Assembly (NCBI RefSeq): GCF_009696275.1
Contig: NZ_VUMI01000017.1
Span: 1-64,000, forward strand
Direction of reading: 5' to 3'
DNA: 64,000 nt
Source of the DNA: Eisenbergiella porci
GTDB taxonomy: Bacteria; Bacillota; Clostridia; Lachnospirales; Lachnospiraceae
The number at the start of each line of letters is the position of its first letter. The stretch's first letter is position 1. This document shows positions 8,504 to 31,353 of this stretch, in pieces. The position numbers were made by a program, and so were the translations under genes. The notes under the pieces were generated by a model. It was not told the DNA's origin and made no database searches. It saw only the letters and a list, made by a program, of their open reading frames with translations.

Positions 8504-8855
8504 GTTGTTCTACCTCCTTTTCATAGCGTTCCTGCCGCTCCAAAGCAGCAAAGCGATTCTGTGTCCGGTACGGTCTGGCTGCCGGTACAATCAGACGGAC
8601 ACGAATGATATTCTTCAGGATTTTCTCCAAAGGCTGGCCGTTCTTCTCATACAGACCAAAGAGCATGAATGGCGCAGCCAGGGCAATCAGCATAAGGAGC
8701 GCTATGTCGTTGCCCAAAGGCTGGCGCAGCAAAAAGTATGCGCCCACACCGGTCACTCCGGCCAGGGAAAAGCAGATGATCTGGCGTTTCGTCATGCCAA
8801 AGGCTACTTTATCCTTCACTTCGGTCAAATCCTTAGTTATGGTTACATAGGCCAA
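8364..8855 (-). CDS. PrgI family membrane protein
   Basis: This short inner-membrane component of Gram-positive conjugation systems plays a VirB3-like role beside VirB4. Two membrane helices lie close together at about residues 25-45 and 50-68 (IICFSLAGVTGVGAYFLL and IALLMLIALAAPFMLFGLY). The conserved YEKNGQPLEKI and a basic tail follow. Two TTG codons are possible starts. I chose 8855 (reading as MAYVTITKDLTEVK, like relatives) because AGGAGG lies 7 bases before it, while the TTG at 8861 is too close. The C-terminal 45 residues, which overlap the VirB4 start, are basic and look poorly conserved. Confidence 0.85.
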   Translation of the reverse strand: MAYVTITKDLTEVKDKVAFGMTKRQIICFSLAGVTGVGAYFLLRQPLGNDIALLMLIALAAPFMLFGLYEKNGQPLEKILKNIIRVRLIVPAARPYRTQNRFAALERQERYEKEVEQLVSIPNKTTGKNSRGLGTSGDPSRHQADTCGQKAGRKGNPQGKKRR

Positions 8856-9948: not shown

Positions 9949-11613
9949 TCAGCCTGTGACCTGCTCCACTTCCGGTATGGGTTTGAGATTAAAATGAATT
10001 TCGATAGAAATGTGTCTTGTCTTATCGCTGCCTATGGTTTCATGGACAACGATTTCTTTAATCAGGCGGTTTAAGGTGGAAGCGTCCAGTTCGGTGATGT
10101 CCCGGTATTCCTGTATGGATTCCACCCACTGCCTTGCGTCCACGGCAAGCCGGATTTCATCGGCAAGGTGCTTCCTGCCTTTCTCGACTTTTGCCTTTAA
10201 TTCCGCCTGTTCCTTCTGCGTCTTTTCCAGCAGGAGATTGAAGTTTGCGTCTGTGATTCGTCCGGCAACCATGTCCTCATAGAGCCGCAGCACCATCTTT
10301 TCCAACACTTCAATCCGTTCCTCGTCTTTGGCAAGGGTGCGCTCCATCGCTTCCCTCTGGCCTTTCTGCTCGGCTTCGCAGGTGTCGGTCAGCCGCCCGG
10401 CCACCGCTTCACTGTCGGTCAGGGCAGCGGCGGCGCACTCCCGGATTTTATTCAGCACAAGGGCATAGAGCGTGTCATAATCAATCCGGTGCTGGGTGCA
10501 GTGCTGTTTCCCAAAGGCATTGTAAGTCTTGCAGGAATAAATCCTCTGGGGGTGCTTGGCATTGGTGTAGCGGACAGTCAGGGACTTTCCGCACTCACCA
10601 CATTTGAGAAGTCCGGCAAACAGGCTCGGCTCCCCGGACTGCCCCGGCCGCTGGCGGGATTTCAGCTTCTCCTGCACGATGGCAAAACTCTTTTTGTCCA
10701 CCAGCGGCTCATGCGTCCCTTCCACCACAATCCAGTCCTCCGGCTTCTTGTCCCGGATAGTGCCGATTTTAAAGCGGTACTCGGTCTTTTGGGAAGCGAT
10801 TGCGCCGGTGTAGACGGGGTTCATCAGGATTTCCTTAATCACTGTAAAATCCCAGATGTACCGCCCATTCTCCGGGTCTTTCTTCTCCCATTTGGTGCGG
10901 ATGTTCCTGTGCCCACGCTGCCGGTTCCACCATGTGGGGCAGGGGTGCTTTTCTTCCTCCAGCCTGCGCCGGATGTAGTTGGGGCCGTGCCCGTCCAGCG
11001 CATACCCGAAAATCAGCCGGACAACCGGGGCGGTTTCCTCGTCTACCAGCAGGCGGTTCCTGTCCTCCGGGTCTTTTTTGTAGCCGAAGGGGGCAAGGCA
11101 GCCGGTGAACTGGCCTTTCTGGGCTTTCAGCACATAGGAAGAATGGACTTTCTTGGAAATATCCTTGCTGTACATCTCATTCAGGATATTTTTGAAGGGC
11201 GCAATGTCGTTGTTGTCCCGCATGGTGTCGATACCGTCATTCATGGCGATATAGCGCACGCCGTTCCTTGGGAAGAAGTCCTCGATAAGCTGCCCGGTCT
11301 GCAAGTAGTTCCGCCCTAACCTTGATAAATCTTTCGTAATGACAAGGTTTATCTGCTTCCGCTCAATGGCCTTCAACATCCGTTTCAGGTCGGGGCGTTC
11401 CATGTTCAGGCCGGTGAAGCCGTCGTCCTGATAGACTGCCGCAACCTCCCATCCCTGCTTTTCACAGAACTTTTCCAGCATATCCCGCTGGTTTGCGATG
11501 CTGGCACTCTCGCCCTGAAGGTCATCGTCTTTCGAGAGCCTGCAATAGATAGCTGCCCGGAATCCCCCGGCAAGCGCCGTGCCAATCACGTCATAATCTA
11601 ATCCGTTCATCAT
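9949..11613 (-). CDS. Large serine recombinase (TnpX/TndX type) of the mobilizable element
   Basis: This 554-residue site-specific recombinase is expected to excise and insert the element at its left end. The catalytic domain has the active serine in YCRLSKDDD (residue 27), then DDGFTGLNMERP and ITKDLSRLGRNYLQTG. The recombinase domain (about 170-300) is followed by a zinc ribbon (CGECGKSL ... CKTY ... HCTQH), a long coiled coil (about 410-490) and a C-terminal DUF4368-like strand (KEIVVHETIG ... ISIEIHFN). All key parts are present. It lies 7 bases after the small gene at 11620, and its 3' end points at the broken Maff-2 gene, which supports its role in that insertion. Confidence 0.93.
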   Translation of the reverse strand: MMNGLDYDVIGTALAGGFRAAIYCRLSKDDDLQGESASIANQRDMLEKFCEKQGWEVAAVYQDDGFTGLNMERPDLKRMLKAIERKQINLVITKDLSRLGRNYLQTGQLIEDFFPRNGVRYIAMNDGIDTMRDNNDIAPFKNILNEMYSKDISKKVHSSYVLKAQKGQFTGCLAPFGYKKDPEDRNRLLVDEETAPVVRLIFGYALDGHGPNYIRRRLEEEKHPCPTWWNRQRGHRNIRTKWEKKDPENGRYIWDFTVIKEILMNPVYTGAIASQKTEYRFKIGTIRDKKPEDWIVVEGTHEPLVDKKSFAIVQEKLKSRQRPGQSGEPSLFAGLLKCGECGKSLTVRYTNAKHPQRIYSCKTYNAFGKQHCTQHRIDYDTLYALVLNKIRECAAAALTDSEAVAGRLTDTCEAEQKGQREAMERTLAKDEERIEVLEKMVLRLYEDMVAGRITDANFNLLLEKTQKEQAELKAKVEKGRKHLADEIRLAVDARQWVESIQEYRDITELDASTLNRLIKEIVVHETIGSDKTRHISIEIHFNLKPIPEVEQVTG

Positions 11614-14107: not shown

Positions 14108-15715
14108 TTAAAGTTCCATATTCTGTTGTTTCTGTGTCCGGGGCGGCTTCTGTGTCCGGGGCGGCTTCTGTTTCCCTGCCTGCTCCTGCCGGATGCGTTC
14201 CTGCCGCCCTTTCAGGCTCTCCTGTACGGATGGTTTCTTCCCCGGCTCGGCGGTCTGGCGGTACTGCTCGGATGGCAAAACCTGATTCAGCCAGTGGCGC
14301 ACGTCACGCAGCACCTTCACATCTGCCTGAACCGCTTCCAGTTCCTTCTTTTGTCCGGGCAGGGCGGCGGCAAGCTGTTCCCGTTCCGCTTCCAAATCTT
14401 TGCGGGAGTAGGAATTGCCTTTCAGGTTGGCTTTCAAATACCGGATGGCGGCATTATAAGCGTCCAGTTCCTCCCGGTGGCTCTCCGCAAACTTCTCCTT
14501 TTTCTTCTTCCAGCCGATGGCGGCATACTCCGCATGGACTGGCTTGGCGGCTTCGTATTTGTCAATGTAGGAGAGCATGGTATTGATGGCTTTTATCCGC
14601 TTCTCGCTTTTTTTCATGCTCCCCATGACGGAAACAGCGGTCTGGCCGATTTCATCCAGCCGGGTGTCAAGGCTCTCCACGGTGGAGATTCCCTTTTTCC
14701 GCAGGAAGTCCATCGCCGCCTGCACTTTATTGTAATCGGCAACGGTTCCTTTCAGCTTCCCTCTGGAAGTCCAGTCGGCACGTTCCCCACTCCGCTGTTC
14801 CAGATACCGGAATAACAGTTCCGGGAGTGTCGGCTCCTTCGCCTGCTCCAATGCTTCCAGTAATACAGCCTTTTTCTCTTTTAAGTCAGACAGCCATCCC
14901 TTTAGGCTCCGTACCATCTGCCGGATGGACTGCATGAGCCGGTTGGCGGTTTTGATGTCCCGGTTCAGATTGCCGATGTTGGTCTGGATTCCTTTCTTCT
15001 CCATCTGGCAGGCGGCCGCTCCCATGTGGACGGTAGGGATTTGGTCAATCCCCTGTCGGGCATAGGAGCGCAGGTCAAGCCGTTCCGGGCGGTCATTGGC
15101 TTCCAGATAGCGGTTGGCCGTGTCCGCCCATCCCTGCCGCCAGATTTCGGCGTACTTCCGGTTGTTCCAGTCTACTGTGTTCTCCTTATGGCTTTTCCAT
15201 CTGCCGGACGCAAGCCGGATGCGCTCCCCGTTCTTGTCAAGGTCGTACACTTTACGGCTCTTGGGGAGCCATTTGCCTTTTTCGTCCATCGCCCGCATGG
15301 TGAGCAGGATATGGGCGTGTGGGTTGCCGTCCCCCTTGTCATGGATGGCAAAGTCGGCAATCATGCCTTTGGAAACAAAAAACTCCCGGCAGTAGTCACG
15401 GATAAGGTCGGCGTACTGTCCCGGCGGGATTTCCCTTGGGATGGCAAGCACGAATCTCCGGGCAAGCTGGGAGTTCCATTGTTTTTCCTGCGCTTCGGCT
15501 GAGTTCCATAAAGTATTGCGGTCTGCAAACTCCGGCGGCACATGGGGCGGGAGCATGATTTCTTTGTGGGTGACTTCGTTCTTGTAGGGATAGTATTTCT
15601 GTTCCTGGTCATATTCAGAGAACAGCTTCTCGCCGCTCTGGTAGGCGGCGGCAGAAACAGCGGATTCATTGTTGCTCCGCTTGATGATGGTGATTTTACA
15701 ATGCGGGCATGGCAA
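14108..15715 (-). CDS. MobA/MobL family (MOBQ) relaxase
   Basis: This 535-residue DNA-nicking relaxase starts conjugative mobilization at oriT. The N-terminal 230 residues form the MobA/MobL domain. They include the tyrosine-bearing AAAYQSGEKL and the metal-binding histidine motif GNPHAHILLTMR. A long coiled-coil region (about 240-500) follows, and the tail ends in two copies of PPRTQK encoded by an 18-bp tandem repeat (about 14134-14169). The start is a TTG at 15715 with AAAGGAGG upstream. Its oriT is at 17042-17086, separated from it by the methyltransferase gene. Confidence 0.92.
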   Translation of the reverse strand: MPCPHCKITIIKRSNNESAVSAAAYQSGEKLFSEYDQEQKYYPYKNEVTHKEIMLPPHVPPEFADRNTLWNSAEAQEKQWNSQLARRFVLAIPREIPPGQYADLIRDYCREFFVSKGMIADFAIHDKGDGNPHAHILLTMRAMDEKGKWLPKSRKVYDLDKNGERIRLASGRWKSHKENTVDWNNRKYAEIWRQGWADTANRYLEANDRPERLDLRSYARQGIDQIPTVHMGAAACQMEKKGIQTNIGNLNRDIKTANRLMQSIRQMVRSLKGWLSDLKEKKAVLLEALEQAKEPTLPELLFRYLEQRSGERADWTSRGKLKGTVADYNKVQAAMDFLRKKGISTVESLDTRLDEIGQTAVSVMGSMKKSEKRIKAINTMLSYIDKYEAAKPVHAEYAAIGWKKKKEKFAESHREELDAYNAAIRYLKANLKGNSYSRKDLEAEREQLAAALPGQKKELEAVQADVKVLRDVRHWLNQVLPSEQYRQTAEPGKKPSVQESLKGRQERIRQEQAGKQKPPRTQKPPRTQKQQNMEL

Positions 15716-15857: not shown

Positions 15858-16691
15858 TTATAATTTCCCTGCAAATATCTCTGCATCAATAGTGATTTCT
15901 TTTGTTTTTTTTAAATCTATTCCATCTTTATTTACACAAAACAGTAGTGGAGTCATATCCGCAAAGGTTTTTATTTCCTCGGATGTCATTGTATACGTTG
16001 CTGAAACTTTCTTGTGATAAACAACGGAATACTTCTTTTGGAAATAATCTACGACAGCCGCATTAGAATATTGATTGCTTTTCAATTGTTCTTTTGCCGT
16101 CTCTCGAAGCTCCTTAAGATGAGCATTTCCCGGAATTACCTTAATTACATAACCGCCTTCTTTCAAAACTCTGTTAAATTCGGAATAGTTAGCAGGAGTA
16201 AAAATATCTAATATGCAATCTATCCTTTTGTCTTTTATGGGCATTTCTTCCAAATTTCCCACAAACCATTTGATAGAATTACTGAAATCACTTTTTGCTG
16301 CAAGCTGAACAGCATCTTTAGAAATATCAAATGCAATAATTTCTTTATCACCTGATACTTCTTTTATCTGCTTTGAATAATATCCTTCACCGCAGCCAAT
16401 ATCAAGTATTGTATCAATGCTGCTAAAGCTTTTTATAAGCTGCACCACTTCATTCAGGATATGTGAATAATAGCCTTTTTCTAAAACCTCCCGCCTAATT
16501 TGAAAAGTCTCTCTGCTATAATGTTTTGAAGATTTTGTTCCTACAGCAAAGTTCACATAACCCGTTTTTGAAATATCGAAACAATGATGATTAGAACAAA
16601 ATAAACTTTTTTGTTTCAATTTTAAATCTGTTTTACATATAGGACATTGAAAAACTTTTTCACTGTCACTAAATCTAAGTATTTTATTCAT
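15858..16691 (-). CDS. 23S rRNA (guanine-N1)-methyltransferase, RlmA/TlrB type
   Basis: This 277-residue SAM-dependent methyltransferase has the RlmA layout. The N-terminal zinc site is CPIC (C16, C19) with C32 and H36 in CSNHHC, with the same spacing as in RlmA. The SAM motif TILDIGCGEGYYSKQI lies near residue 94. RlmA-II/TlrB enzymes methylate G748 of 23S rRNA and reduce binding of tylosin or mycinamicin-type macrolides. Which guanine this enzyme modifies is not known. The gene is about 25-30% G+C in sampled stretches, while the neighbouring relaxase reaches about 60%, so it was acquired separately. The ATG at 16691 has CGGAGGG upstream and a regulatory leader lies before it. Confidence 0.85.
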   Translation of the reverse strand: MNKILRFSDSEKVFQCPICKTDLKLKQKSLFCSNHHCFDISKTGYVNFAVGTKSSKHYSRETFQIRREVLEKGYYSHILNEVVQLIKSFSSIDTILDIGCGEGYYSKQIKEVSGDKEIIAFDISKDAVQLAAKSDFSNSIKWFVGNLEEMPIKDKRIDCILDIFTPANYSEFNRVLKEGGYVIKVIPGNAHLKELRETAKEQLKSNQYSNAAVVDYFQKKYSVVYHKKVSATYTMTSEEIKTFADMTPLLFCVNKDGIDLKKTKEITIDAEIFAGKL

Positions 16692-16746
16692 TATTCCCTC
16701 CGTTATTATATTACTTGCCCAATAAGCGAGCTATGCAATACGGATT

Positions 16747-16768
16747 CACCGCAACATAACCCGCGGTG
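16747..16768 (-). promoter_or_regulatory. Attenuator hairpin between leader peptide and methyltransferase
   Basis: Immediately after the stop codon of the 8-codon leader, CACCGC pairs perfectly with GCGGTG across a 10-base loop. Further on, CCGTATT (about 16737-16743) can pair with AATAACGG, which overlaps the ribosome site of the methyltransferase. No T-run is obvious, so translational rather than transcriptional attenuation is the more likely mode. The folding was judged by eye. Confidence 0.5.
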
Positions 16769-16795
16769 TTATCTTAATCTCATATGCGCTGTCAT
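16769..16795 (-). CDS. Macrolide-sensing leader peptide MTAHMRLR
   Basis: An 8-codon open frame, ATG to TAA, encodes MTAHMRLR and has an excellent GGAGGTGAG ribosome site. Leaders with an Arg-Leu-Arg (+x+) motif are known to arrest ribosomes carrying a macrolide and so switch on resistance genes: the mef/mel leader MTASMRLR and the ErmD leader, which begins MTHSMRLR. The match here is close enough to infer the same role for the methyltransferase gene that follows 77 bases downstream. Induction itself is inferred, not shown. Confidence 0.75.
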   Translation of the reverse strand: MTAHMRLR

Positions 16796-16831
16796 ATTCT
16801 CACCTCCAAACTCCGATTTGTCACCGGCTCC

Positions 16832-16860
16832 ATTATACGCTATCTCATAAAAAAAGTATA
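16832..16860 (-). promoter_or_regulatory. Promoter of leader-methyltransferase unit
   Basis: A perfect -10 TATAAT (16832-16837) lies 17 bases from a weak -35 TATACT (16855-16860). Transcription would start about 30 bases before the MTAHMRLR leader. Confidence 0.6.
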
Positions 16861-17041
16861 GCCGAATTTCAGCAAACTTGTCAGATGGAAACAACTTGCA
16901 ACGCAAGATAATTCCGGGCGGCAAGTCCACAAAGGGGTAGCTGGCGTAAGCCAGCGCAGGGGAAGGGTAACTTCCCCTGTGATGATTGGAGCAGATTGAA
17001 AATCTACGGAAATCATCTGCTGTCCGCAGGACGCCTCCGGC

Positions 17042-17126: not shown

Positions 17127-17447
17127 TTATGACCGTTCCCGGTCTGGCTCTTTTCTCTTGGAATGGGGCGTTTTCTCCCTCGTCTGCGCCTTTGCTTCCG
17201 CCAGCCTGCGCCGGATTGAATTGTCCCGCTTCTGGATAAACCGCTGTCTGGTGTCAGCGATAAAGCGGCGGCACTCCGGCTCCGGGATAGCGTCCAGCTT
17301 TCGGATTGTGCTTTCCACAATCTCCCTCGCCTGCCTGTCACGAATGACCGGCACGATTTCCCGAAGTCCGGCAAGAGTTTCCTGTTTCGTGGCGGCGGCG
17401 TACTGGTAAACCATAGCCAGCTCGTCCTTTGAAAATTTCACATTCAT
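17127..17447 (-). CDS. Small helical, basic protein next to oriT
   Basis: This 106-residue protein (LAMVYQYAAATKQETLAGLREI near the N-terminus and a strongly basic C-terminus) is encoded right beside the oriT. I do not recognise a named family. Its position and charge would suit a relaxosome or mobilization accessory protein, but this is inference. The ATG overlaps the TGA of the DUF3847 gene (ATGA) and has GGAGG upstream, so the two are co-translated. Confidence 0.65.
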   Translation of the reverse strand: MNVKFSKDELAMVYQYAAATKQETLAGLREIVPVIRDRQAREIVESTIRKLDAIPEPECRRFIADTRQRFIQKRDNSIRRRLAEAKAQTREKTPHSKRKEPDRERS

Positions 17448-17743
17448 TCCGTGTCCTCCTTTTCTGTGCCGGTTCCGGCAAATATCTGTTCTATGAGCTG
17501 CCGGGTGCTGTCCCGATGAAAGAGCAGCTTCAAGAACAGTTTGACCTGTTCCTCCGGCAAAAGCTCCGGGTGGGGCAGGTATCTTTCCAACTCCGCCCCT
17601 CTGGTACAGAGCCGGTGCGTCCGCTCTTTTCGGGTCAGCGTCTTTATCTGGTGTTCCAGAATCTTTTCCTCATGCTGCGCCCTCCGCAACTTTGCTTCGG
17701 TTTTCTCTATTTCCTGATTGAGTTTTTCCAGCTTTTCACTCAT
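17444..17743 (-). CDS. DUF3847 family protein
   Basis: This 99-residue protein has an N-terminal coiled coil (EKLEKLNQEIEKTEAKLRRA) and a conserved LCTRGAELERYLPHPELL segment typical of DUF3847 proteins of mobilizable elements. Its function is unknown. The ATG at 17743 has GGAGGG 8 bases upstream. The gene begins 5 bases after the upstream stop and overlaps the next gene by 4 bases, as part of a four-gene operon (18266 to 17127). Confidence 0.75.
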   Translation of the reverse strand: MSEKLEKLNQEIEKTEAKLRRAQHEEKILEHQIKTLTRKERTHRLCTRGAELERYLPHPELLPEEQVKLFLKLLFHRDSTRQLIEQIFAGTGTEKEDTE

Positions 17744-17747
17744 AGCG

Positions 17748-18077
17748 TCAGCCCTCCGTTCTGGGAATGAGTACATATATCTTGTTCGGCTCCCCAAAGC
17801 CTTGACGCACCCGCACAATCAGTCCGGCAGCTTCCAGCTCGTTTAAGGAACGCTTCACGGTCATGGTGCTGCGGGAGAGCGCCGCCGACAATTCCACAAT
17901 CGGGAAACAGATAAATAAAATCCCGTTCATGTCCTCTATGCCATTTGCCAGAACATCGTCCAGCATACGGGCGTACATGATTTTTGCGGTGCTGCTGATC
18001 GGGAGCCGCAGCATGGCTCTCGGCAGAGGCATACTGGGCGGCAGGGGTGTGTCAATCGTCATAAATTCATATTCCAT
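17748..18077 (-). CDS. Replication initiator-like winged-helix protein (RepA N-terminal type)
   Basis: This 109-residue protein resembles the N-terminal winged helix of RepA/replisome-organiser proteins: PLPRAMLRLPISSTAKIMYARML followed by the recognition region ALSRSTMTVKRSLNELEAAGLI. Full RepA proteins are longer, so it may be a stand-alone DNA-binding domain with a control role. Its ATG at 18077 follows the TGA of the upstream gene directly and has GGAGGA further upstream. It is probably important for replication or regulation of the mobilizable element. Confidence 0.7.
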   Translation of the reverse strand: MEYEFMTIDTPLPPSMPLPRAMLRLPISSTAKIMYARMLDDVLANGIEDMNGILFICFPIVELSAALSRSTMTVKRSLNELEAAGLIVRVRQGFGEPNKIYVLIPRTEG

Positions 18078-23151: not shown

Positions 23152-24621
23152 TTATTCGGGCAAGTCAATCTTGCCGACAAAGCTGTAATAAATCTCAATG
23201 TCCTGCCTGCGGGTGCCGTTCTCATCATAGCTGCACTCATGCACCACAATTTTCTCGATCATTTCCCGCAAGAGAGTGGGGGTCAGTTCTTCAAAGGCAA
23301 GGTGCTTGCGGACAATGCCCATAAATTTCTCGGCGTTGACGGTAGCTGCCTGTGACTTGTCCAGTTCGGCTTGCAGGGCGGCGGCTCTCTTTTTCAGCTC
23401 CGCTTGCTCGGCTTCGTAGTCAGCCGACAGTTCCATGAAACGCTCATCGCTGATTTTGCCGTTTACATTGTCCTCATACAGCCGCTTGATAATGCGGCTG
23501 ATTTCAGAAATGCGTTCCTGCGCCTGTTCAAGCTGCTTGATGGCTGCGGCGGTCTTTCGCTTGCCGCCGATCTCGTTCTGCTGGACAAGTAGTTTCACAA
23601 ACCGGCTCTCATGCTTGGCTGCGTATTCGGTCACTTGCCGGAGATTTGCCAGGACACCAGCGGTCAACAGATCGGTGCGGATAAAGTGCGCCGTACAGTT
23701 GCGGGTGCGCTTCTTGTAGCTGCCGCAGATGTAGCAGTCCTGTTTGCGGTCTTTGTTCTGATACCGCTGCTGATACAGCACATGGCCGCAGTCGGCGCAG
23801 AACAAAATCCCGGAGAACAGCCCCACTTCATCGTAGCGGTTCGGGCGTTTGCGCTGTTTGCGTAACTCCTGCACCCGTTCCCATGTTTCCTTGTCGATGA
23901 TCGGCTCATGGTGGTTCTCGAAAATGGCCTGCTTCTCGACGGGGTTCTCTATGCTGTGCTTGACCTTATAAGAAGGCTTTTCCGTTTTGAAGTTCACCAG
24001 ACATCCGGTGTACTCTCGGTTTTCGAGGATATGAACGACGGTGTTGGTCGCCCATTTGCACTCATAGCCTGGGTGATAACGGCGGGTGCTGCCTGTCCGC
24101 TGATATTCCAGCGTCCCCGGCGTGGGGATTTGCTGCTCCGTCAGCATACGGGCAATCTTGGTCGGGCCGTTCCCGGCAAGGCAAAGCTGGTAAATCTGCT
24201 GCACCACCGGGGCGGCTTCCTCGTCTATAATAAAATTCTCGTCCTCGTCCATCACATAGCCGTAAACCGGCTTGCTGGTAACAGGCTTGCCGCTCATGCC
24301 TTTTGACTTTTTCACTGCCTTGATTTTCTTGCTCGTATCTCTCACCAGCCATTCATTGAACAGATTTCGCAGCGGGGTAAAATCGTTGTCCATGCCCTCG
24401 CTGGCACTGTCCACATTATCGTTGACAGCGATAAAACGCACACCCTTTTGAGGGAACAGCATTTCCGTGTAAAACCCTACCTGCAAGTAGTTTCGCCCTA
24501 ACCGGCTCATGTCCTTGACGATGACCGTACCCACTTTCCCGGCTTCAATGTCCGCAAGCATGGCTTGAAATCCGGGCCGCTGGAAGTTCGCGCCGGAAAA
24601 ACCGTCGTCTCCTAATGTCAA
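23152..24621 (-). pseudogene. Large serine recombinase lacking its catalytic N-terminus
   Basis: The frame begins abruptly at DDGFSGANFQRPGF, a motif normally near residue 60, and continues normally to the C-terminus: KDMSRLGRNYLQVGF, the recombinase domain, a zinc ribbon (CADCGHVL ... CYICG), a coiled coil and the DUF4368-like end IEKIVVHECS. The catalytic serine and the first 55-60 residues are missing, so the protein cannot join DNA. Upstream of the breakpoint (about 24,605-24,620) lies the 3' end of the next element. That element therefore most likely inserted into this gene, and the missing 5' part should lie outside the window. Confidence 0.85.
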
Positions 24622-24678: not shown

Positions 24679-25010
24679 ATCCCGCTTGTAATCAGCGTTG
24701 CGGTTTCAAACACTTCTATACCTGAACGGTTCAGGTCATCAAGGAATCTTCCAACCTGGATGTAATCCTTGCCCAGCCGGGACAGGTCTTTTACCAAAAG
24801 TGCATCTACCTTTCTTGCCCTTACGGAATCAAGAAACTGCATGATCCCAGGCCGGTCAAAGGTCAGGCCACTTTGTTCATCCTGCGACTGGCCGACAACA
24901 TTCAGCTTCCGCTTTTCTGCAAAACGGCGCAGGCTCTCCATCTGGATTTCTAAAGCATGGCTGTCCAGCGAAGCAACGCGGCCATACAGCCAGAAACACT
25001 TACGATTCAT
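24675..25010 (-). CDS. Mini serine-recombinase (resolvase N-terminal domain only)
   Basis: This 111-residue protein contains just the resolvase catalytic fold: YGRVAS with the active serine, QSGLTFDRPGIMQFL, and LLVKDLSRLGKDYIQVGRFL. The frame then ends in FETATLITSGI, with no DNA-binding zinc ribbon. It overlaps the end of the recombinase at 25000 by 11 bases. It may be a regulatory partner of the three large recombinases or a shortened relic. The last residues, lying at the element edge, may be a junction artefact. The central region keeps all conserved residues, which argues for a working domain. Confidence 0.7.
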   Translation of the reverse strand: MNRKCFWLYGRVASLDSHALEIQMESLRRFAEKRKLNVVGQSQDEQSGLTFDRPGIMQFLDSVRARKVDALLVKDLSRLGKDYIQVGRFLDDLNRSGIEVFETATLITSGI

Positions 25011-26634
25011 TCGTCGTGTCCGCCTTCGATTTCAGTTCTGCCAGCAACCGTTTGTACTCGTCCTGAAATTTCCAAACGATCTCAATAGAGGTGTCACTGT
25101 AAATGTAAATATGCTGGATCAGCAAATCCACCAGTTCTCGTGTCAGTGTTCTTACATTGGTATATGGCAGAACACTTTCGGCCGGGGATTTTTCGTCCGG
25201 CAACTGCCGCTTTTCGCTCTGTAATTCTCTGATTTTCTGTTCAAGGCGCCCGATATGTTCATCGCACTGCTTGCATCTGCGTTTATATTCTGGTTCATCA
25301 CATAAGCCAGATACCATATTTTCAAACGCACTCATTTTCTCCTGCTGGCGCATTTTAATGGAGTTTTCATGTGCCAGTATTTTTTGCTCAATCCTCTGAT
25401 TGTACCGATCAGCCTTATCAGATTGCCGCTGCCGTGCTTTCTCTGCCTTTCGGAGAAACTGTGCCATCGCACGAATGGAAGCAAGCACGGCCTGTTCCAA
25501 TTCCTTTTCGCTCATTTTATCCTGCGGGCATCCAATGTCCGGTTTTCTTCGGTAAGTCTGACAGATATAATATGGATTTGTTCCCTCCATGCGTGTCATT
25601 GCCAACCGGCAATGACCACAGCGGACCTTTCGGTAAAATATTCGGCTGCTTACTTTAGGCGGCGCTGAATGAGATGATGCAGACAGTTCTTTTGCTGCTT
25701 CAAAAAGTTCTTTTGAGATAATCGTAGGGATTGCCCCATCAACAACCGTCCACTGACTTTCCGCCACACGCTTTATATCATGGGACCCTACCTTTTTCCG
25801 CATGGTCTTTCCATAGACAGCCTTGCCGGTATATCGTTCATCATTGAGGATTTTTCGCACCGTTCCAGAAGTCCAATAGTTGCTGTCCTGATCGACACAA
25901 TTCCATTTCCGCGTTACAGATTGCGTTCGTTTGGTCTGCAAAGGGGTCAGAACACCTTCGACATTGAACTTCCGGGCTATCTCATGGGTAGACAAACCAC
26001 TGATGAATAAATCAAATATCCGCCGGACTGTGGCTGCCGCAGCTTCATCCACAAGCAGGGTGTGCTTATCTTCCGGCGATTTTTGATAGCCAAAGAAAGC
26101 AAATGGAGCAAGGTAGTAGCCTTTCTCCGCAAGCTGCTTCTTTGTGGAGCGAACCTTTTCCGAGAGTTCCTTGCTATACAGGTCATAAATCACATTGCGG
26201 AACGACACATCAATCAACCCTGCGGCGCCGTATTTGTGATCCTTGCTGTCGTAGCCATCATTGATTGCGATAAATCGGACATCCAAGAAGGGAAAGATCT
26301 GTTCCAGATAGTCGCCTACCACGATGTAGTCACGCCCAAAACGGGACATATCCTTGACGATGATGCAGTTGATTTTCCGATCCCTGACCTGCCGCAAAAG
26401 GCGCTTGACTGCGGGGCGCTCCATGTTCGTTCCAGAATAGCCATCATCACAAAATTCCAGAATCCGCGCTCCTGAAAATTCGGGGTGCTGTGCGATATAC
26501 TGATGGATGTAGGCCCGCTGGTTGACCACACTGTTGCTCTCATTTTTTTCATCCGACAAGTCGCCATCCTCTGCGGAAAGCCTGATGTAGACAGCAATCA
26601 CCAATTCCATAGCAGGCTTAAAATCCCTCTCCAT
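25000..26634 (-). CDS. Large serine recombinase 3 of tandem array
   Basis: This recombinase of about 544 residues has YIRLSAEDGDLSDEKNESNS with the active serine, DDGYSGTNMERP, VKDMSRFGRDYIVVGDYL, a recombinase domain, a zinc ribbon (CGHCRLAM ... CQTY ... GCPQ), a coiled coil and a C-terminal beta segment (HIYIYSDTSIEIVWKF). I chose the ATG at 26634 because AGGGGG lies 7 bases upstream; the GTG at 26640 is too close. It overlaps the end of the preceding recombinase by 17 bases, so the three are co-translated. Together they probably move the second conjugative element. Confidence 0.9.
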   Translation of the reverse strand: MERDFKPAMELVIAVYIRLSAEDGDLSDEKNESNSVVNQRAYIHQYIAQHPEFSGARILEFCDDGYSGTNMERPAVKRLLRQVRDRKINCIIVKDMSRFGRDYIVVGDYLEQIFPFLDVRFIAINDGYDSKDHKYGAAGLIDVSFRNVIYDLYSKELSEKVRSTKKQLAEKGYYLAPFAFFGYQKSPEDKHTLLVDEAAAATVRRIFDLFISGLSTHEIARKFNVEGVLTPLQTKRTQSVTRKWNCVDQDSNYWTSGTVRKILNDERYTGKAVYGKTMRKKVGSHDIKRVAESQWTVVDGAIPTIISKELFEAAKELSASSHSAPPKVSSRIFYRKVRCGHCRLAMTRMEGTNPYYICQTYRRKPDIGCPQDKMSEKELEQAVLASIRAMAQFLRKAEKARQRQSDKADRYNQRIEQKILAHENSIKMRQQEKMSAFENMVSGLCDEPEYKRRCKQCDEHIGRLEQKIRELQSEKRQLPDEKSPAESVLPYTNVRTLTRELVDLLIQHIYIYSDTSIEIVWKFQDEYKRLLAELKSKADTTNES

Positions 26635-28348
26635 ATTCACACCCCCTATACAGTAGTTTTTTCATTTCGTCCTGATATTTCAGGATAATATGTACCTGCT
26701 TGTCCTCATTCACATAAATCTTCTCAACCAATGCCAGAAGCATTTCCCGTCTCAGTTCCTTTTCCCCTTGGAACCTCGAAAAAGCAGCGAACCACTTGTT
26801 CTGTTTTGGGTTTGTTTCCGGCAGTTGAGCCTTTTCGTCCGCAAGCTGTTCCAAACGGCGTTCGATCAACGCATACTCATCATCATACCGGCTCTTCCCA
26901 AACAGATAGTCAGCCTGTGACACGATACCACTCGCATAGCTCTCAAAAAGGTTCTGGCGCAGGGTGTCGATCCGTTTTTGGCGGTCTTGGGCGGAATTGA
27001 TTTCATTATCAATCGACACTCTGTGAGTTCGGACGGCTGCCGATTTCTCTACCTTTTTGATGATTGACTCCACATCTGCCAGCAGAGAGATTTGCAGACG
27101 GATCACATGAAACACCGCAGCTTTCAGTTCATCCTCCGAAAGCCCTCCGGCGTTGGGGCAACCAATATCCAGAAGGGACGCATGGCGTGGGCAGATGAAG
27201 TTGAACGAAACATTTCGCCCCTTGTTATAAACACTCTTATAGCGGGTCATGTTGCGCTTACAGCAGGCGCAAACAACAAGCCCTTCAAAAATATTCTCAC
27301 TGTTGAAATGGGCATATTTCCCCAGGCGGCTGTGATATTCGTCCCGTCGTGCCTTCATAATCTCCTGTACGGCATCGAACAATTCCTGCGAGATGATGGC
27401 TTCATGCGTATTGGGAACGATGACCCATTCAGACGAGAGAATTATCTTTTGACGCTGGCCTGCATATAGCTTGGAGATTTTCTTGCCCTGTGCCATGTGA
27501 CCCAGATATACCGGGTTTTGAAGGATGTTTTTTACCGCCTGCGTCTGCCAGGGGTCATTCTGCGCATAGCGCATCGTGTAGATAATCCCCTGCAAATAGC
27601 GGTGATGGTTCGGGTTTGGAACCTTTTCTTCACTCAATATTCGGGCAATCCCCGCATTGCTCATCCCATCCTTTTTCATCTGGAATATCCGCTGGACCAC
27701 AGGCGCCGCTATCGGATCGACAATCAGCTTGTGCTTATCTTCGGGTGACTTCATATAGCCGTAGGCTGCGTAGTTCCCGATAAATTCGCCGTTCCGTTTT
27801 TTGATGTCCAATGCGGAAAAAACCTTATGAGAAATGTCCTTCGCATAAATGTCGTTCATCAGATTTTTCAGAGCTGCACTCATGGCGTCCCCACTGTCTG
27901 CCCGGACGCTGTCGTAGTTGTCATTGATGGAGATAAACCGAACTCCCATAAACGGCAGGACCTTTTCCAAAAAGTTTCCGGTTTCCAGGAAGTCACGGCC
28001 AAACCGGGACAGGTCTTTTACGATGATACAATCCACCCGGCCAGCTTTTACATCATCCATCATCCGTTGAAATCCTGCCCGTTCAAAATTGGTTCCGGTT
28101 TCTCCGTTGTCACGGTAACAATCGTATAATTCAAGGTCGGGATGCCTCGCAATATAGGCACACAGGTAATCTATCTGTGTTTGAAGGCTCTCGCTGTCCT
28201 TCCGGTCACGGGTATCCATAATGGACAGCCGCACATAGACAGCGACACGGTAGACCCGCAGCGATTTTTTCATTTGGGCGGCCATAGGGGACGGCAGTTG
28301 GCCGGTCTGCGCCGCAGCAATTTTGCTTCTCCGGCTTACTCTTGCCAT
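26618..28348 (-). CDS. Large serine recombinase 2 of tandem array
   Basis: This 576-residue recombinase has the active serine in YVRLSIMDTRDRKDSES, then the variant motif RDNGETGTNFERAGFQRM and VKDLSRFGRDFLETGNFL. The zinc ribbon is CACCKRNM ... CPRH ... GCPNAGG, and a coiled coil and C-terminal strand (KIYVNEDKQVHIILKY) follow. The N-terminal 28 residues are extra and basic. The AAGGAGG ribosome site lies inside the last codons of the preceding recombinase, whose TAA is directly followed by this ATG, a sign of tight coupling. It is clearly divergent from its neighbours, so the array did not arise by a recent duplication. Confidence 0.9.
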   Translation of the reverse strand: MARVSRRSKIAAAQTGQLPSPMAAQMKKSLRVYRVAVYVRLSIMDTRDRKDSESLQTQIDYLCAYIARHPDLELYDCYRDNGETGTNFERAGFQRMMDDVKAGRVDCIIVKDLSRFGRDFLETGNFLEKVLPFMGVRFISINDNYDSVRADSGDAMSAALKNLMNDIYAKDISHKVFSALDIKKRNGEFIGNYAAYGYMKSPEDKHKLIVDPIAAPVVQRIFQMKKDGMSNAGIARILSEEKVPNPNHHRYLQGIIYTMRYAQNDPWQTQAVKNILQNPVYLGHMAQGKKISKLYAGQRQKIILSSEWVIVPNTHEAIISQELFDAVQEIMKARRDEYHSRLGKYAHFNSENIFEGLVVCACCKRNMTRYKSVYNKGRNVSFNFICPRHASLLDIGCPNAGGLSEDELKAAVFHVIRLQISLLADVESIIKKVEKSAAVRTHRVSIDNEINSAQDRQKRIDTLRQNLFESYASGIVSQADYLFGKSRYDDEYALIERRLEQLADEKAQLPETNPKQNKWFAAFSRFQGEKELRREMLLALVEKIYVNEDKQVHIILKYQDEMKKLLYRGCEYGEGF

Positions 28349-30808: not shown

Positions 30809-31353
30809 AAATTGACCTCCTGAATATAAGTAAGCCGGAAACAGGGCAGGCCAAAAGACCTGCCCCATATCCAGCGAAATACAAAATCCGATTTGTTTTC
30901 TTGCTATGTGCCATTTGTCCTTGACACCCCGCACATACTGGGAAGTCATCGAGCGGCCGGCAGCGTACCGGCCCACGGGAATTTCACCCCTCCGAGGATC
31001 TCTCCGAGCTGCCCCCATTGCGTGATCCTGCGGTCAAGCAGGGCTGTGGCTGGACAGGAGTACCATTATACCCCTTGCCGGTCATGGCCTCGCCGGGTGC
31101 TGCCCGGTTGTGACAGGCTGCCGTTACTCGCTCATACGGGACAGGATTGTACGCAAGACCAATTATATGATAATCAGGTGGGATCTGCTCATCTTGTCCG
31201 TATATCATGGCGCGGCCCCTGAGTCGGCTTTTGCTCCTCGCACTGACAAGGGGGAAGTTACTGATGAATGAGTATGCGGTTGTCAAGGTCCAGGCGAAAG
31301 GAGAACTCTCAAAAAGAATGCCTTTCACCTATCGTCCTGAAAACCGGGGGGTG
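30809..31353. other. Intergenic region without a convincing gene
   Basis: These 545 bases lie between the sigma-like and MazF-like genes. Several frames are open (for example minus 30984-31328) but have neither a ribosome site nor protein-like composition. GC-rich imperfect palindromes occur around 31,040-31,140. It may hold the promoter for mazF and the recombinase group, but I cannot point to one with confidence. Confidence 0.35.

Follow-up and report, generated by a model that had tools for sequence, protein, structure and literature searches.

What is an eight-codon reading frame doing directly ahead of an RlmA-type methyltransferase gene? The window analysed here, a stretch of DNA of 64,000 nucleotides, raises this question on its minus strand, where ribosome site GGAGG (16807–16803) is followed by a 7-base spacer, an ATG (16795–16793), the codons ACA GCG CAT ATG AGA TTA AGA and the stop codon TAA (16771–16769), encoding MTAHMRLR. 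Directly 3′ of the TAA lies the hairpin CACCGCgggttatgttGCGGTG (16768–16747, CACCGCGGGTTATGTTGCGGTG), which has 6 bp, or 8 bp in the computed fold when two inner G-U pairs are counted. The end of the hairpin is separated by 45 bases from the GGAGG of the methyltransferase gene (16701–16697), whose ATG is at 16691. The preliminary description had named the 8-codon frame, its ribosome site, the MRLR end, the hairpin and the methyltransferase that follows, all of which are exact by sequence reading; its interval 16747–16795 is exactly leader plus hairpin, and the strand, which it did not give, is minus.

The frame is short, has its own ribosome site, and lies on the same strand as, and upstream of, the methyltransferase gene. 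Specifically, residues R6, L7 and R8 at the C-terminal end of the peptide form an R/K-x-R/K arrest motif. The pattern GGAG-N5-9-ATGACNNNNNNNATGMGNYTNMGN-TRR has one match in the 64-kb window and none in 100 dinucleotide shuffles, and an Rfam search gave no match at the leader at gathering scores. The promoter-like site upstream (Table 1) is weak, because the region contains two such sites against a shuffle mean of 0.9. MTAHMRLR is best read from its letters as a macrolide-arrest-type leader, which would place the gene under macrolide induction. Taken as a whole, positions 16807–16691 are likely to constitute a macrolide-sensing translational attenuator that induces a mobile RlmA(II)-type enzyme predicted to methylate G748, with a drug of the tylosin type as the most probable inducer.

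Table 1. Positions of the leader, the attenuator helices, the methyltransferase gene and neighbouring genes in the window
Feature	Positions	Strand	Basis and remarks
Large serine recombinase	9949..11613	-	Pfam Resolvase/Recombinase
MobQ/MobA_MobL relaxase	14108..15715	-	NCBIfam MobQ, 238.2 bits (cut-off 200); just 3′ of the methyltransferase gene
RlmA(II)-type 23S rRNA guanine-N1 methyltransferase, 277 aa	15858..16691	-	Domain profiles and tree
Methyltransferase ribosome site GGAGG	16697..16701	-	Sequence
Helix 3:4	16699..16744	-	Outer arms 16744-16733 and 16710-16699
Competing helix 1′:3	16726..16764	-	16764-16755 GCGGGTTATG with 16735-16726 CATAGCTCGC
Helix 1:2 (CACCGC..GCGGTG)	16747..16768	-	Fold and alignment; the hairpin of the preliminary description
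Leader ORF MTAHMRLR, with stop	16769..16795	-	Sequence; arrest predicted where Leu7 occupies the P site and Arg8 the A site
Leader ribosome site GGAGG	16803..16807	-	Sequence
Promoter-like CTGACA-18-TATACT	16855..16884	-	Consensus scan, 10/12 matches; additional TATAAT at 16837-16832
TTRAP, DUF3847 and DeoR/RepA_N-like genes	17127..18077	-	Pfam; upstream of the cargo slot

The methyltransferase matches the RlmA zinc ribbon (PF21302, 50.7 bits, cut-off 27), a methyltransferase domain (PF13847, 52.5 bits, cut-off 27) and E. coli RlmA (1p91, 106.7 bits). Its best NCBIfam match is the RlmA(I) (G745) equivalog PRK11088, with 177.2 bits far under the cut-off of 303. In a tree of 63 rows, some of which carry warnings for long branches and uneven make-up, the enzyme falls into a nine-row clade with RlmA of S. 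mitis, S. infantis, S. parasanguinis and S. suis (100/98), and Proteobacteria form a separate group (100/100) that includes four Bacillota rows. The zinc ribbon, the methyltransferase domain and the streptococcal clade support the RlmA/TlrB-type identity proposed before, and Streptomyces fradiae TlrB presumably belongs to the same enzyme family. The assembly contains no second RlmA zinc ribbon protein; its further match to the enzyme (32% over 80 residues, E 4.9e-8) is without the RlmA zinc ribbon. The 23S rRNA of the assembly contains the helix-35 loop CCGTTGAAAA, in which we take the base at position 748 to be G. Gram-positive RlmA(II) methylates G748 (PMC6851288, part of the article), and we infer that the window enzyme would do the same.

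The preliminary description had suggested looking for the leader beside RlmA genes of other genomes, and the search found it repeatedly. RlmA homologues at E up to 1e-40 occur in 20 of 397 family-sample genomes, and 19 of the 20 stand behind a leader of this class; 18 were read directly, and in the remaining one (G197) leader and gene are split between two contigs whose ends overlap. The lone exception (G242, locus L109) has a 54% identical RlmA; on its minus strand at about 2316–2368, ATGAGATTAAGAT is fused to the gene start, and the attenuator looks deleted. The leader-bearing loci form three groups, namely the window type with MTAHMRLR, a group with MTAYMRLR whose proteins are 64–65% identical to the window enzyme, and a group with MVTFMRLR (45%). 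A covariance model of the leader region, built from seven sequences and run with strict search filters at which weak matches are lost, matched 4 of 391 class-level and 11 of 392 order-level genomes, its own genome in both. These matches make up 14 distinct places in five families (f1, f3, f38, f52, f62), every one before an RlmA homologue (13 by tblastn, and G197 by its first codons, as the contig ends there). L107 was not given a count of its own because its contig begins within the attenuator.

A loose leader pattern matched in 122 of 397 genomes and was excluded from the counts; many of these matches are, by eye, chance or the starts of ribosomal protein S16. A pattern scan of viral contigs gave three contigs, of which L148 is the same gene as L086, and L149 and L150 were rejected as leaders, as they end in TGG, admitted by the TRR of the pattern. 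As a side observation, L223 (G1284) has a broken RlmA-like remnant with one internal stop near an intact gene with the leader MSTHFMRLR. Separately, small staphylococcal plasmids, mostly of about 2.5–3 kb, encode an RlmA-like methyltransferase (about 36% identical); on pWHA09 (L097), only this gene and rep are annotated, and no leader was found on pWHA09, read across the gene start, or on pSA-01 (L098).

Which drug would such a leader read? The preliminary description had likened it to the RLR leaders of mef and ermD, a likeness that extends to the Arg6-Leu7-Arg8 register of ErmDL and breaks down at residue 4, which is His in the window leader and Tyr or Phe in its relatives. According to part of the ErmDL study (PMC8298421), ErmDL (MTHSMRLR) mediates telithromycin arrest via R-L-R, but erythromycin-dependent arrest relies on the N-terminal part and allows Ser4 to be exchanged for Ala or Gly only. 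When the tlrB leader is aligned on R-x-R, Phe stands at the place of the window His4. Because residue 4 is His, Tyr or Phe and tlrB has Phe, we consider tylosin-type sensing by the window leader likelier than erythromycin-type sensing. An erythromycin-type leader would be mismatched, since RlmA(II) protects against tylosin-type drugs. The tylosin reading hangs on one residue, of which the window His would be the least clear-cut form.

We regard it as rather unlikely that the leader instead senses erythromycin-class (14/15-membered) macrolides and ketolides, as mef and ermD leaders do, in which case the enzyme would have a resistance spectrum wider than tylosin or would act as a helper next to mef. 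This reading draws on an MRLR core identical to that of mef and ermD leaders (PMC4335068 Table 3, part of the article), on the dependence of ketolide arrest of ErmDL on R-L-R, and on the mef-type genes near RlmA in three genomes; it conflicts with His, Tyr or Phe at the residue where erythromycin arrest of ErmDL allows only Ala or Gly for Ser4 (PMC8298421, likewise in part), and with tlrB, which has Phe in the same register and for which, in the cited part of PMC6851288, tylosin but not sub-inhibitory erythromycin is an inducer.

To ask how far this residue follows the downstream gene, we scanned upstream of RlmA at 72 loci, at 16 loci of one order and at 158 loci (some genomes repeated), with a hydrophobic residue before the motif required in the 158-locus scan and not in the other two. 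In the 72-locus scan, an SD-led ORF ending in +x+ is present at 13 loci, and all six ATG-started ones belong to the RlmA-leader class. Together with the family-sample and covariance-model loci, the scans yielded eight distinct clear RlmA leaders, MTAHMRLR, MTAYMRLR, MVTFMRLR, MSTHFMRLR, MNTQFMRLR, MIIQFIRLR, MIIQFIRYR and MGIRFIRIR, among which MNTQFMRLR and MIIQFIRLR have GTG starts. In each of the eight, the residue two before the first Arg is aromatic or His, and in all six distinct mef/msr/erm peptides in Table 3 of PMC4335068 it is Ser or Ala (Fisher p = 0.0003, shared descent ignored). Three kinds of candidate were left out of this comparison: L214 (...FIRLRLR), with no in-frame start codon; L209, doubtful, a GTG-started MYPAATNHPGKIRVR with a close GGAGG and a stop 79 bases before the gene; and background-like GTG- or TTG-started +x+ ORFs at L010, L011, L014, L028, L198, L202 and L207, of which those at L010 and L011 have Phe at the critical place. 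L209 has Lys there and is a counter-example if it is a real leader; with L209 counted p is 0.0014, and with His additionally discounted 0.007, shared descent again ignored. The excluded frames at L010 and L011 (Streptococcus infantis and S. oralis) read M[L/P]SSPFFARLKL from a TTG start, with a GGAGG, 56 bases before the rlmA match.

From this pattern we draw a tentative rule, one that we hold to be possible rather than probable: the residue two before the first Arg would set the arresting macrolide class, with Ser or Ala for erythromycin-type drugs (mef/msr/erm) and Phe, Tyr or His for tylosin-type drugs (RlmA(II)), such that each leader would read the drug its gene defeats and both sensors could share resistance islands as separate channels. 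We have lowered the weight of the rule because of the Lys in L209. Also, the Phe-Ile-Arg codons of tlrB-like leaders look by eye complementary to the ribosome site of the gene, and Phe in these leaders may be kept for RNA pairing; in the window type, the corresponding leader codons lie outside the three helices described below. The authors of the tlrB study suspect one of the first six leader residues for arrest specificity (PMC6851288, cited part).

How could an arrested ribosome open the methyltransferase gene? The RNA behind the leader stop can be drawn as three helices, and the hairpin seen in the preliminary description (helix 1:2) is present, as just one among these competing helices. 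Helix 3:4 takes up the GGA of the methyltransferase ribosome site, while helix 1′:3, which can be extended by pairing 16753–16749 with 16743–16739, is incompatible with both 1:2 and 3:4. Across seven distinct sequences, all lettered cells of helix 1:2 are paired, as are 93.1% of the cells in the 19 pairs of helix 3:4 and 99.1% of the 112 cells of helix 1′:3 (one cell unpaired); slid controls are paired at 32–48% for the OFF structure (1:2 plus 3:4) and 28–51% for 1′:3. Nearly all changes within the alternative helices preserve pairing. For example, helix 1:2 has an outer C-G pair in the window type, whose place is taken by U-A in the 64% group (L103/L151) and, when the gap is placed by hand, by A-U in the 45% group (L007/L114); hand placement is needed because the aligner set its single gap at that column. 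Automatic covariation is weak, with one pair changed on both sides, a count that 340 of 500 shuffles equal, and none in 1′:3.

The mechanism that we propose for this stretch runs as follows. Without drug, the ribosome would translate MTAHMRLR and depart, and helix 1:2 would form upon transcription and be kinetically trapped, leaving segment 3 free for segment 4 and the methyltransferase ribosome site closed. With drug, the ribosome would halt where Leu7 occupies the P site and Arg8 the A site, and its front edge would lie 15–16 bases further on, so that the 5′ arm of helix 1:2 (ACCGCG) is covered. GGTTATG, left uncovered, would then pair with segment 3 (CATAGCT) while segment 4 has yet to be transcribed, which would keep the ribosome site open, and the induced enzyme would methylate G748, blunting tylosin-type drugs. 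Both the stalling and the switching are inferred from the leader and from the helices that can be drawn.

Computed folding describes the states between which such a switch would act. OFF lies below ON by 1.5 to 6.8 kcal/mol for the window, L099, L102, L007 and L114, and 1.4 kcal/mol above it for L103; helix 3:4 of the window is weaker (-9.2 kcal/mol, with one extra C-A mismatch) than that of the relatives (-10.3 to -15.7 kcal/mol). When Leu7 occupies the P site, the ribosome masks the RNA through ACCGCG, and GGTTATG, AGTTATG or AGTTGTG stays free. With this mask, helix 1′:3 reaches 0.91–1.00 in nascent RNA of all seven attenuators, and without a ribosome it is already dominant in six of the seven. 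In full-length RNA, the mask raises the openness of the ribosome site in none of the seven (window, 0.70 without and 0.70 with mask; L099, 0.31 and 0.26; L102, 0.28 and 0.26; L103, 0.54 and 0.47; L151, 0.72 and 0.30; L007, 0.75 and 0.25; L114, 0.79 and 0.27). We rejected equilibrium folding as proof of the switch, as the switch does not appear in it, and for the same reason the direction of the switch rests on kinetic trapping of helix 1:2. The computed path barrier for leaving this helix is 11–15 kcal/mol in six distinct attenuators; that helix 1:2 would form first and stay is the weakest step of the model.

The absence of ribosome-site opening at equilibrium could also mean that the main control is transcription attenuation or mRNA protection, as in mef/mel and in part in tlrB. 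The nearest functional precedents, mef/mel and tlrB, employ terminators (PMC4335068 and PMC6851288, both in part), and a mef(A) leader on another contig (L156) is followed by a hairpin and then a T-run. Between the leader stop and the gene in the window, however, there is no terminator-like site (the two sites found are both located ahead of the leader). The three attenuator types shown also have no T-run of at least 5 in front of the gene, in contrast to six of six other RlmA leader stretches, and we hold this alternative to be quite improbable here. In these other stretches, by eye, the T-run directly follows an inverted repeat in L185, L187, L204 and L210, and a shorter or broken T-run follows the repeat in L200 and L220.

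The leader and attenuator hardly vary across the three groups although the enzymes are only 45–64% identical. That the leader is a chance ORF, its conservation only apparent from recent spread of identical copies, is very hard to credit, for although the copies within each group are 99.5–100% identical, so that their number says little, the three groups retain leader codons 5–8, the hairpins and the spacing, and similarly designed leaders stand before RlmA in Priestia and in other genomes of the same phylum.

The leader and gene together are, judged from sequence comparison, a mobile unit found in differing mobile contexts. Within each group, in comparisons of 5, 15 and 6 loci, leader plus gene share 99.5–100% DNA identity across 938 bases, and near-identical copies cross genera in all three groups and five families in the MVTFMRLR group. 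Upstream of the leader ATG, only 19–26 bases are shared (7–14 before GGAGG) among L103, L104, L106 and L108 and between the window and L086, while the MVTFMRLR group has at least 63 upstream bases in common. In the window, the relaxase next to the gene also matches Pfam MobA_MobL (301.1 bits), and the RepA_N match in 17127..18077 is under its cut-off (20.3 of 30 bits). The neighbourhood further includes primase-like and VapE-like genes, with TraG-, TrbL- and NlpC-like genes further down. Window positions 16960–16793 are 73.5% identical to Enterococcus plasmid DNA, in which a GNAT gene occupies the slot. A DNA search of the whole 1161-base stretch against plasmid and phage collections matched three plasmids and no phage; the plasmid matches are confined to backbone that lies ahead of the leader, and for the leader stretch by itself there is no plasmid match at E up to 1. 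The window holds three large serine recombinases (9949–11613, 23152–24621 and 25000–26640), which suggests nested mobile elements. A pemK RNA (RF02913, 68.4 bits) lies at 30973–31069 on the minus strand.

Elsewhere, neighbours were listed for seven stretches (L152–L158), partly scored, together with single genes of L007, L086, L105 and L003, and they fit drug resistance. On L158, two IS91-type units that are 99.96% identical over 2560 bases flank the leader and gene, and on L154 the pair adjoins a relaxase and a coupling protein. L156 encodes Mef(A) (888.1 bits, cut-off 675) 1.6 kb from RlmA; this Mef(A) has the leader MTASMRLR, with MTAYMRLR-rlmA close by on the same contig. In one genome (L007 = L112 = L168), a mef-like pump (541.7 bits, below the cut-off of 675) lies immediately upstream of RlmA, and a mef-like gene is also near RlmA in L158, bringing mef-type neighbours to three genomes. 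L157 encodes ANT(6) (449.9 bits, cut-off 420).

Further observations concern the same surroundings. The mef-like gene of L158 (minus strand, about 8714–8830) has a leader-like, GTG-started MLICVR behind a good ribosome site; a hairpin-like stretch and then a T-run come after this frame. A radical-SAM RlmN/Cfr-like protein is encoded near RlmA in L158 (6209–7324), L105 (2605–3660), L086 (152–1090) and L103; the three that were scored reach 261–270 bits for RlmN (cut-off 290) and 172–198 for Cfr (cut-off 530). On L205 (Priestia megaterium pBMV_1), an msr-type ABC-F gene lies closely behind the RlmA gene.

If our reading is right, a mobile RlmA(II) gene found in several bacterial families would be an inducible resistance determinant and not a housekeeping enzyme, and resistance testing without induction could overlook it; the resistance itself is a prediction. 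The question of tylosin specificity raised in the tlrB paper (PMC6851288, cited part) would be narrowed to one named leader position, and the attenuator would be a simple three-segment RNA design without a terminator. The preliminary description had expected leader control of an RlmA/TlrB-type gene to be new or rare, an expectation overtaken by published work: tylosin induces B. subtilis tlrB (yxjB) by way of the 9-aa leader MIIQFIRYR, and 180 R/K-X-R/K leaders are predicted before tlrB homologues (PMC6851288, cited part). A literature text search found MIIQFIRYR only, and not MTAHMRLR, MTAYMRLR, MVTFMRLR or MSTHFMRLR, which the 180 leaders in the supplement of PMC6851288 may include; among the papers listed for RlmAII and mobile elements, none concerns this leader-gene unit. 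What is new here is a mobile RlmA(II)-type gene with probable leader control and a different, terminator-less attenuator, and the residue pattern among leaders; the logic is that of tlrB.

Among known systems, the mef(E)/mel leader MTASMRLR shares with the window leader the 8 codons, M-T-A-x-M-R-L-R, the ribosome site and the stop after the last Arg, and differs in having Ser4 instead of His, an efflux gene downstream and transcription attenuation with a terminator (PMC4335068, cited part). ErmDL/ErmKL (MTHSMRLR...) have the same Arg6-Leu7-Arg8 register and a methyltransferase downstream, whereas Erm methylates A2058 and erythromycin arrest requires Ser4 (or Ala/Gly) (PMC8298421, cited part). 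The RlmA(II)/TlrB enzymes of streptococci are of the same family and share the clade of the window enzyme, and the streptococcal RlmA copies L008–L014 are without an ATG-started leader of the window kind. Closest is B. subtilis tlrB, which has in common with the window an RlmA(II) enzyme, a leader ending in R-x-R, an aromatic residue (in the window, His) two before the first Arg, and a hairpin that could close the ribosome site of the gene. In tlrB, according to the cited part of its description (PMC6851288), there is an intrinsic terminator, and the sequestering hairpin includes the leader R-x-R codons; none of the seven loci examined that have a tlrB-like leader (L185, L187, L200, L204, L210, L211 and L220) was matched by the covariance model. 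The window, in contrast, has no terminator and combines a mobile gene with a separate three-segment stretch behind the leader stop.
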